The translations under genes were made by a program, and so were the position numbers. The notes beneath the pieces are model-generated. The model was not told the DNA's origin, made no database searches, and saw only the letters and a list, made by a program, of their open reading frames with translations. This document shows, in pieces, positions 44,299-47,391 of a DNA stretch of 64,000 nucleotides; the first letter of the stretch is position 1; the number at the start of each line of letters is the position of its first letter. This stretch comes from Petrotoga mexicana DSM 14811 (GTDB taxonomy: Bacteria > Thermotogota > Thermotogae > Petrotogales > Petrotogaceae), in contig NZ_AZRN01000014.1 of NCBI RefSeq assembly GCF_002895565.1, forward strand, positions 1-64,000. Direction: 5' to 3'.

Positions 44299-44476
44299 TA
44301 ATGATAATTATAATTATGTATATCTAAATTATTAAAATTTTTTCATTTTTTAAAGAAAATCTGATATAATCTAAATAACTAATTAGACGTTTATAGATAT
44401 AAAGAAGGTGGGAGCGGGGCGAAGGAGCGCTGTATAATTAGATTTTAAAGGTAGTATATAATAAAATCATCGGAGG
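44299..44476. other. Leader region upstream of the IscB element and rimO
   Basis: AT-rich sequence with TATAAT at 44365-44370, repeat copy G, a second TATAAT-containing stretch near 44455-44462 and a GGAGG at 44472-44476. The GGAGG looks like the ribosome binding site that rimO had before the IscB element entered. Confidence 0.5.
44405..44452 (+). repeat. G-rich leader repeat, copy G (degenerate)
   Basis: A single unit with G-runs GG, GGG, GGGG and GG separated by T, AGC and CGAA, then AGCGCT (44426-44431) and a TTTTAAAGG tail. It points towards rimO, from which it is now separated by the IscB element. Confidence 0.78.
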
Positions 44477-44479
44477 AAT

Positions 44480-44745
44480 CGAGTCAACTACCCACCGTCT
44501 AAAGACGGGGACTTGTGATGAACAAGCCTTAGTTGACTACCCTCAGCCATGATAAACGGGCTTCCGCCTCTTAAGGAAGATCATTGGGCTACGTTATATA
44601 GGTCATAACACCTTCGGATGTTTCTCCTGGTCCGTCGCTCTGTTGTTTAGTTTTAAACAATCCTGAGGGGTAGGGATAGTGAGCTAAACGTAAAAAGCCT
44701 ATATAACATTGGGGAAGGAGAAGAACTCCATTAAGGAGGCACACT
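44480..44745 (+). ncRNA. HEARO / omega-RNA of IscB
   Basis: The 265-bp stretch upstream of iscB folds into the architecture of HEARO RNA, the guide RNA of IscB. Pairings visible: 44483-44489 with 44531-44537 (7 bp) enclosing two small hairpins; 44537-44546 with 44663-44673 (CTACCCTCAG with CTGAGGGGTAG); 44593-44602 with 44698-44707 (10 bp perfect); a hairpin at 44642-44659; and a hairpin with the shared GGGCTTCCGCCTC tip. In this family the guide is the 5' extension, taken from DNA just outside the left end, here about 44460-44480. The structure is read directly; the guide role is established for the family and inferred here. Confidence 0.85.
44557..44578 (+). repeat. 22-bp hairpin-tip repeat, left copy
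   Basis: The sequence beginning CGGGCTTCCGCCTC and ending TTAAGGAA is identical to 46005-46026. It caps a stem AGCCATGAT/ATCATTGGGCT inside the omega-RNA. A shared terminal hairpin is what a TnpA-type transposase would recognise. Confidence 0.75.
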
Positions 44746-44747
44746 TT

Positions 44748-46022
44748 ATGTTAGTGTACGTTTTAAACAAACATGGGAAACCTCTTATGCCTTGTAAACC
44801 TTCAAAGGCAAGAAAATTACTTAAAGAGGAAAAAGCCAAGGTTATTAGAAAAGAACCTTTTACCATTCAGCTCCTCTATGGTAGTAGCGGTTATAAACAA
44901 CCTATTACTTTAGGAGTAGATGCGGGAAGTAAAACTGTAGGCTTGTCTGCTACTACTGAAAATAAGGAACTTTTTGCAGCAGAGGTTGAACTAAGGGACG
45001 ATATACCTAAACTTATATCTCAAAAACGACAGTATCGTAGAGATAGACGTTTCAGAAAAACAAGGTATAGGAAACCACGCTTTTTAAATCGTGTCCACAG
45101 TAAGAACAAAGGATGGCTTGCACCGTCGGTAGAACATAAAATAAAATCGCACATTAAACTGATTGATCTAGTTCACAGTTTGCTTCCTGTTACAAAAATT
45201 GTAGTAGAAGTTGCAAGTTTCGATATACAAAAGATTAAGAATCCTAATATTGAAGGCAAACAATACCAACAAGGGGAACAATTAGATTTTTGGAATGTAA
45301 GGGAATATGTTCTATGGAGAGATAACTACACCTGTCAACACTGCAAAGGCAAAACCAAAGATAAAAGACTCAATATTCACCACATCGAAAGTAGACAAAT
45401 AGGTGGAGATGCACCCAATAATTTAATTACATTGTGCGAAACATGCCATAAGGATTACCACGATGGAAAGATTAAATTGAATTTTAAAAGAGGACAAAAG
45501 TTTAAAGATGCTACATTTATGGGTATTATGAGATGGACTTTATACAATAGATTAAAAACACTATACCCTAACATTCATCTAACTTATGGATATATCACTA
45601 AAAATACAAGAATACAAAATGGTTTACCTAAAACACATAGAATAGACGCTTTATGTATTAGTGGTCATCCTCAAGCAAAACAATTAGAGCATTATTATCA
45701 CATTAAAGAAGTTAGACGACACAATAGACAAATACACAAAGCTAACATTCTAAAGGGAGGAATAAGAAAACTTAACCAAGCACCTTATCTAGTACATGGT
45801 TTTAGATTGTTTGATAAAGTAAAATACAATGGTATTAAATGTTTCATATATGGAAGACGTTCAACTGGATACTTTGATATAAGAAAAGTTGATGGCACAG
45901 TAATTCATAGAAGTGCAAAAAGCAAAGATTTAATCTTAGTAAGCAAAACTAAAACTCTATTATGGGAAAGGAGAGAAAATTCTGCATTCCTCTCACCACT
46001 GAACCGGGCTTCCGCCTCTTAA
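44748..46022 (+). CDS. iscB: IscB RNA-guided nuclease
   Basis: A 424-residue protein, the compact relative of Cas9. Domains in order: PLMP domain (residues 1-50, GKPLMPCKPSKARKLLKEEK), RuvC-I with Asp in GVDAGSKTVG (near 57), arginine-rich bridge helix (near 95-115), RuvC-II with Glu in VVEVASFD (near 151), HNH domain with zinc pair CQHC (near 196), catalytic IHHIES (near 210) and LCETC, RuvC-III with HRIDALCIS (near 298), and a C-terminal target-adjacent-motif domain (FDKVKYNGIKCFIYGRRSTG). All catalytic residues of both nucleases look intact. ATG 44748 follows AAGGAGG. The preceding omega-RNA would supply the guide. Confidence 0.94.
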   Translation: MLVYVLNKHGKPLMPCKPSKARKLLKEEKAKVIRKEPFTIQLLYGSSGYKQPITLGVDAGSKTVGLSATTENKELFAAEVELRDDIPKLISQKRQYRRDRRFRKTRYRKPRFLNRVHSKNKGWLAPSVEHKIKSHIKLIDLVHSLLPVTKIVVEVASFDIQKIKNPNIEGKQYQQGEQLDFWNVREYVLWRDNYTCQHCKGKTKDKRLNIHHIESRQIGGDAPNNLITLCETCHKDYHDGKIKLNFKRGQKFKDATFMGIMRWTLYNRLKTLYPNIHLTYGYITKNTRIQNGLPKTHRIDALCISGHPQAKQLEHYYHIKEVRRHNRQIHKANILKGGIRKLNQAPYLVHGFRLFDKVKYNGIKCFIYGRRSTGYFDIRKVDGTVIHRSAKSKDLILVSKTKTLLWERRENSAFLSPLNRASAS

Positions 46023-46026
46023 GGAA
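46005..46026 (+). repeat. 22-bp hairpin-tip repeat, right copy
   Basis: Identical to 44557-44578. It lies across the iscB stop codon and caps a stem CTCACCA/TGGTGAG (about 45992-46034), giving the right-end hairpin of the element. Confidence 0.75.
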
Positions 46027-46053
46027 ATGGTGAGTCTCCTGCAGATATTTTTC

Positions 46054-47391
46054 ATGAAAAAGTTTCACATAGTAAAATTAGGTTGTCCAAAAAACGATGC
46101 AGATATGGAAATATTCAAAGGGTTGCTCCAAAGCAAAGGACACAAATACGAAAGTAACCCTCAATTTGCTGATTACATATTCATAGATACATGTGGTTTC
46201 ATCGAAGAAGCTAAAAAAGAAAGCATCGAAGCTATATTTGAATATGCCTCCTTAAAAGATAATAACAAAAATCTAAAAGTTATACCAATAGGTTGCTTAG
46301 CTCAACGGTATTTTGATGATATTCTTAAAGATATCCCTGAAATTGATGGATTATTTGGTGTGTTGTCTCCAAAAACCATAGTTGAAAAAGTTGAAAATGG
46401 TCAATATTTTTTTAAAAATGATATTCCTGAAACTCTGTACGATTGTAAAATTAGAGCGATTCCAGACTCACACTACGCATACGTAAAAATTGGGGATGGG
46501 TGTAGTAGAAATTGTGCCTTTTGTTCTATACCCACGTTCAAAGGAAAACCAAAAAGCAGAAGTATCGAAGAAATAAACGAAGAAGTAGAATTTTTGGTAT
46601 CCAAAGGTGTAAAAGAAATCATTCTCGTATCCCAAGATAATACATTGTACGGCATAGATAATTACCAAAAGCAGGCACTACCAGATTTACTAGACAAACT
46701 TAACAATATAAAAGGAAGATTTTGGATCAGGGTTATGTACTTACATCCGGATTTCTTAAGTGAAGACATCATAGAAAGCATACATAGAAATGAAAAAGTA
46801 TTAAATTATTTCGATGTACCAATTCAACATATCTCTGATAAAATTTTGCAAAGTATGGGCAGACATAAGAAAAGAAATGAGTTAATGAAACTATTTGAGA
46901 AAATCAGAAAAGAACCATCTGCTATAAGAACCACGTTAATGGTAGGGTTCCCCGGAGAAAAAGCTGAAGATTTTGAAGAGTTACTCGATTTCGTGAAAGA
47001 AATAAAATTTGAACGAATGGGGAGCTTTAAATTCTCAAAAGAAGAAAATACCAAGTCATTCACATTGCCAGAACAAATTGATGAACAAATTAAGAAACAA
47101 AGGCAAAATGAACTAATGACTGTTCAAAGTGAAATTTCTAAAAACATCATGGAAAAATATATAGGTAAAACTTTAGAAGTTCTTTTGGAAGAGAAAGAAG
47201 ATAACGTTTATATCGGAAGAAGCTATTTAGACGCTCCAGAAATTGATGGAAATATATATATAAAAAATTACGGTGACAAAGAACTATCTTTAGGGAATTT
47301 CGTCAAAGCAAGAATTACTGGCTCATACGAATATGATCTGGAAGGAGAAATCGTTGAATATGAACATACCAAATTTGTTGAGCTTTTCTAG
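46054..47391 (+). CDS. rimO: Ribosomal protein S12 methylthiotransferase RimO
   Basis: A 445-residue radical-SAM enzyme that adds a methylthio group to Asp of ribosomal protein S12. The N-terminal UPF0004 domain has KLGCPKNDADME and two more cluster cysteines (TCGF and GCLAQRY), the radical-SAM motif is DGCSRNCAFCSIP near residue 148, and the C-terminal TRAM domain binds RNA. LGCPKN distinguishes RimO from MiaB. ATG 46054 gives the standard start but has no good ribosome binding site; the IscB element ends just upstream. It heads a run rimO-pgsA-thpR-recA-recX-rny. Confidence 0.93.
   Translation: MKKFHIVKLGCPKNDADMEIFKGLLQSKGHKYESNPQFADYIFIDTCGFIEEAKKESIEAIFEYASLKDNNKNLKVIPIGCLAQRYFDDILKDIPEIDGLFGVLSPKTIVEKVENGQYFFKNDIPETLYDCKIRAIPDSHYAYVKIGDGCSRNCAFCSIPTFKGKPKSRSIEEINEEVEFLVSKGVKEIILVSQDNTLYGIDNYQKQALPDLLDKLNNIKGRFWIRVMYLHPDFLSEDIIESIHRNEKVLNYFDVPIQHISDKILQSMGRHKKRNELMKLFEKIRKEPSAIRTTLMVGFPGEKAEDFEELLDFVKEIKFERMGSFKFSKEENTKSFTLPEQIDEQIKKQRQNELMTVQSEISKNIMEKYIGKTLEVLLEEKEDNVYIGRSYLDAPEIDGNIYIKNYGDKELSLGNFVKARITGSYEYDLEGEIVEYEHTKFVELF

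Follow-up and report, generated by a model that had tools for sequence, protein, structure and literature searches.

IscB nucleases and their HEARO RNAs (OgeuIscB, PDB 7xht and 8csz; models NF040563 and RF02033) are the closest described systems to the element reported here. As in this element, the RuvC domain of these nucleases is split by an HNH domain and the protein has an N-terminal PLMP-type region, the HEARO RNA lies directly upstream of the nuclease gene, the 5′ guide is taken from the flanking DNA and the TAM is on the 3′ side, the last two being predicted features in the present case. The TAM is NTAAA for OrufIscB and NWRGNA for the editing variants of OgeuIscB (PMC13180657), and both differ from the ATGAA suggested by the insertion flanks here. 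IsrB (PDB 8dmb) has the RuvC scaffold in common with the present IscB and matches it in fold, but is without the HNH domain that the latter carries. TnpB of IS200/IS605 is likewise a transposon-encoded RNA-guided nuclease with a guide drawn from flanking DNA, but it is an unrelated and HNH-free protein whose RNA carries the guide at its 3′ end, unlike the present IscB; TnpB genes also occur in the genus Petrotoga. AwaIscB, from the 2021 work of Altae-Tran, reportedly has the TAM ATGA and would in this respect resemble the present element, although its host and its sequence differ. No paper joining Petrotoga with IscB was found in our literature search.

The window, the whole stretch of 64,000 nucleotides analysed from Petrotoga mexicana DSM 14811, holds what is apparently an ordinary and intact IscB, one more of a known family, with the following features:

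44463 to 44482, + strand: predicted guide, the last 20 bases of the left flank, of rimO leader type, adjoining the first base of HEARO.
44483 to 46053, + strand: whole IscB element of 1,571 bp, with joints from the uninterrupted polA-rimO alleles of four sister genomes.
44483 to 44726, + strand: HEARO / omega-RNA scaffold, RF02033, 148.2 bits, 211/211 model positions.
44748 to 46022, + strand: iscB, 424 aa, RuvC split by HNH, with a C-terminal domain, from the open reading frame, domain and family models, alignment and predicted structure.
45992 to 46034, + strand: right-end hairpin CTCACCA...TGGTGAG, read from the sequence, with a small palindromic repeat and the stop of iscB in its loop.
46054 to 46058, + strand: TAM ATGAA as predicted from the insertion flanks, which is also the rimO start codon and is host DNA outside the element.
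46054 to 47391, + strand: rimO, the host gene directly downstream, TIGR01125, 475.8 bits.

The iscB frame starts at ATG 44748, is preceded by AAGGAGG and runs unbroken to the TAA stop at 46020-46022. By every feature testable in the sequence, the protein is a member of the IscB family, as an earlier note made from the letters of this DNA had claimed. It scored 396.4 bits against the NCBIfam model guided_IscB NF040563 (cut-off 175), contained RRXRR and HNH domains in a domain search and matched IscB chains in the PDB by sequence, and its predicted structure (mean pLDDT 74.8, with low-confidence linkers) had IscB and IsrB as best structural matches (E 1.1e-27). The catalytic residues, whose loss had been set beforehand as a refutation test, are intact and consist of RuvC-I D58, RuvC-II E154 and RuvC-III H297/D300 together with the HNH residues H211/H212, N225 and H234/H238; the two zinc CxxC pairs are C196/C199 and C230/C233. 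When aligned with 10 relatives of the class and 22 others found by scanning the whole collection, D58 was nearly invariant and E154, H211/H212, N225, H234, H238, H297 and D300 were kept, and the zinc cysteines 196, 199, 230 and 233 were kept in the nearer relatives. Some relatives in the class are without these four HNH cysteines. RNA-guided double-strand cleavage is the predicted activity of this IscB, and since its host is probably moderately thermophilic, the enzyme may be thermostable. With 424 aa against 496 for OgeuIscB, a compact IscB with the TAM ATGAA could interest genome-editing groups.

The upstream RNA, claimed from the letters to be a complete HEARO/omega-RNA with a perfect 10-bp stem, held up on both counts. 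The match to RF02033 covers the entire model well above its gathering score of 83 (E 4.5e-31 over the whole window) and ends 21 bases before the iscB start, and GTTATATAGG at 44593-44602 pairs perfectly with CCTATATAAC at 44698-44707, a stem that is also paired in the HEARO model. Subterminal stems are found at both ends of the element, GTCAACT...AGTTGAC on the left and CTCACCA...TGGTGAG on the right, and the loop of the right-end hairpin is missing from the sister copies L032/L037. The small palindromic repeat (GGGCTTCCGCCTCTTAAGG and variants) occurs at 44558-44576 in a loop of the omega-RNA and at 46006-46024 in the right-end hairpin. A related palindrome is seemingly inserted in frame in another iscB, giving 14 extra residues in L020, and is also seen near TnpB genes in sister genomes (L035 is also listed for the repeat).

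In four sister species polA and rimO are found without an insert, and comparison with these empty alleles places the joints at 44482/44483 and 46053/46054, with no base duplicated or lost. The span of 44477-46045 originally given for the element differs slightly from that of 44483-46053 obtained from the empty sites. The element separates the ribosome-binding site of rimO from its start codon, the left joint being 5 bases past that site, GGAGGA (44472-44477, inside the predicted guide), and the right joint immediately 5′ of ATGAAAAAG, the rimO start. ATG 46054 was taken as the native rimO start because the RimO model (TIGR01125) begins at residue 3 from this codon. The rimO leader ending at 44482, the predicted guide, reads ..GGAGGAATCGA.

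Besides that of the window, seven close copies with 91-94% protein identity were found at five further distinct sites in the genus. ATGAA is on the right at all six distinct insertion sites and also in the empty alleles, and each of the six reconstructed empty sites was recovered without an insert in sister species. The 20 bases to the left of a copy showed 0 to 4 differences from the best-matching empty allele, and the window flank is 1/20 off the allele of G005, so that the match between 5′ flank and empty site expected in the earlier note was found in relatives. From ATGAA and uninterrupted sister alleles at 6/6 sites we infer that the guide is formed by the bases ending at 44482, and its proposed location near 44460-44480 was right to within two bases. 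The arrangement is as expected if the 5′ flank serves as guide and ATGAA as TAM, the latter being read from insertion flanks and not from cleavage. Six insertion sites with before-and-after sequences amount to a natural experiment from which the TAM can be read with no assay.

The DNA itself shows that RNA and protein are intact, where exactly the element begins and ends, that the guide adjoins the scaffold, that every site carries ATGAA and that sister species have empty alleles. The window copy is very probably an intact IscB (OMEGA) mobile element with the rimO leader as its predicted guide, which would cut the uninterrupted rimO allele and be restored there. If transcribed from the rimO promoter, the RNA would have the rimO leader at its 5′ end as the predicted guide and continue through the HEARO scaffold, its body, into iscB. 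Bound to this RNA, IscB would be expected to cleave double-stranded DNA in which a match to the guide is followed on the right by ATGAA. The predicted target is the rimO allele without the insert, which may arise by excision or be encountered through DNA exchange, and the element would be preserved or brought back when the break is repaired from the occupied copy. It is very improbable that the window copy is a relic, decayed or adopted by the host, or a regulator of rimO with a dead nuclease; a Y1 transposase was not found in the genus and the sister copy in G002 carries two stops, as a relic might have it, but the iscB frame of the window is unbroken with all catalytic residues there, and the rimO insertion site is not common to other species.

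HEARO integration beside ATGA/GTGA was reportedly noted in 2009. Of the six genus sites, four are gene-start-like, rimO and purH being called by model and two more by an open frame with a ribosome-binding site, and two fall on methionine codons inside open frames. The wider sample comprised 80 IscB loci of 58-71% identity that were picked by protein motif alone regardless of insertion site, several of them from the same genomes but at distinct sites; gene starts were taken from open frames and right ends were found by motif. An ATG was counted as start-like when followed by an open frame of at least 80 codons with fewer than 40 codons open before it. Start-like ATG was found at 25 of the 41 sites with both ends readable compared to 8% of 1,422 control ATGA within the flanks of these loci (odds ratio 18, p 8e-17), and when both sets were restricted to ATGAA at 19 of 31 sites compared to 9.4% of controls (p 2e-11). 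A cruder classification by gene calling placed 21 of 40 sites at starts, with an odds ratio of 49 over in-gene and 10 over intergenic ATGA, and in-gene sites were strongly under-represented among IscB insertions. With the looser right-flank motif [AG]TG[AG], 25 of 58 sites were start-like against 5.3%, some of these ends being wrong; the ATG-only analyses were preferred and relied on because this motif also caught GTGG within the end hairpin. In the left flanks G peaked near positions -10 to -12, as expected of a ribosome-binding site. The related HEARO family in G007 with the flank motif ATRATAAA, of which five copies serve as contrast only, is not at start codons. IscB elements among the relatives are in excess at start-like ATG, and the element family strongly prefers positions immediately before host gene start codons.

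Since the guide is the 5′ end of the RNA and lies outside the element, the promoter of an IscB guide would have to be host DNA. Our preferred reading of the start-codon placement, held tentatively, is that the guide RNA has to be transcribed from a promoter of the host and that elements at gene starts are retained because they are expressed. The TAM ATGAA would land the element in the sense direction between promoter and gene, and the anatomy of the element leaves no room for a promoter of its own 5′ of the guide. The excess over control ATGA, unrestricted as well as for ATGAA, and that of about tenfold odds over intergenic ATGA both argue for expression from host promoters. The same reading predicts a sense bias among in-gene sites, but no such bias was seen in the small looser-motif set (6 sense vs 6 antisense), and the gene starts on which it depends come from open frames rather than annotation. 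Somewhat less probable is survivorship, by which, with an ATG contained in the TAM, insertions within genes are lost and those at starts keep the frame whole and are tolerated. The scarcity of in-gene sites agrees with such losses, but the excess over intergenic ATGA is not obviously explained by them, and an insert between ribosome-binding site and start codon should itself harm.

Start sites would also be harmless if the right end re-creates initiation, by an in-frame leader or by coupling to the iscB stop, and this we consider unlikely. In the window ATG 46027 or GTG 46030 is in frame with rimO, and in most copies no more than about 30 bases separate the iscB stop from the host ATG, the two overlapping in 7. 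Over 67 right ends, however, the host frame was not open to a greater degree than the remaining two, and few starts in frame had a ribosome-binding site. The window copy by itself had made a convincing case for an in-frame leader or a fusion with the gene downstream, but the 67 right ends gave no support and this was rejected. With expression from host promoters as the preferred reading, it is possible, though we hold it with some doubt, that in this whole IscB clade targeting relies on the start codon of the host as its motif, by which promoters and leaders of the host are captured as guides; an element placed between promoter and gene would be expressed there, and its target, a ribosome-binding site plus AUG, would be hard to mutate. 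Placement at start codons throughout the clade suggests a reason why a mobile element can operate with a 5′ guide that lies beyond its own end.

The claim that this is an element of the IS200/605 type was only partly sustained. End structure and literature speak for it, and the subterminal hairpins, the fixed flank ATGAA (TTCAT on the other strand), the precise joints and the lack of target duplication are all IS200/IS605-like, but no Y1 transposase was found in the window genome or in five sister genomes. Y1 (PF01797) was absent at E 1e-3 from 6/6 genus genomes, including one in a single contig, in a search that did detect its positive controls, and none was found within the window element itself. 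A permissive search of the genus genomes with E up to 10 gave weak partial Y1 matches only, and the query with a REP-associated transposase found none in the genus or in G013. Self-sufficient IS200/IS605 status is not supported, the transposase being the missing part, and the present mobility of the element is doubtful given that no Y1 transposase was found in the genus. Few HEARO nucleases have been reported with a TnpA neighbour (PMC9755519). Among 103 genomes of the class, HEARO was found in 24 and Y1 in 33 with 9 in common, and the two therefore do not go together in the class. With no Y1 transposase found in the genus, the means by which IscB elements move become a more pressing question.

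About 13 internally deleted HEARO copies with 97-99.9% identity are found in the single contig of G007 (L112-L126, e.g. L112 at about 151-1041), each with a full omega-RNA and only the C-terminal about 210 residues of IscB. PF01797 had no match above cut-off in G007, and an initial conclusion that this genome has no Y1-type transposase at all was wrong, as it carries one divergent REP-associated tyrosine transposase of 185 aa (L266, 411-968, − strand), which scored 55 bits against NF047646 with its cut-off of 80 and is below the Pfam Y1 cut-off.

The genus also contains more distant IscB elements of 37-52% identity (L156-L160, in G001, G004 and G005), which have HEARO RNAs of their own. At 44400-44440 the window has a GC-rich interspersed repeat that ends in the conserved CTRTATAATTAGATTTTAAA and has many copies in the genus; it is conserved upstream of rimO and may carry the rimO promoter. 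A cobalamin riboswitch (RF00174, 92 bits) is located at 305-468 of the window.
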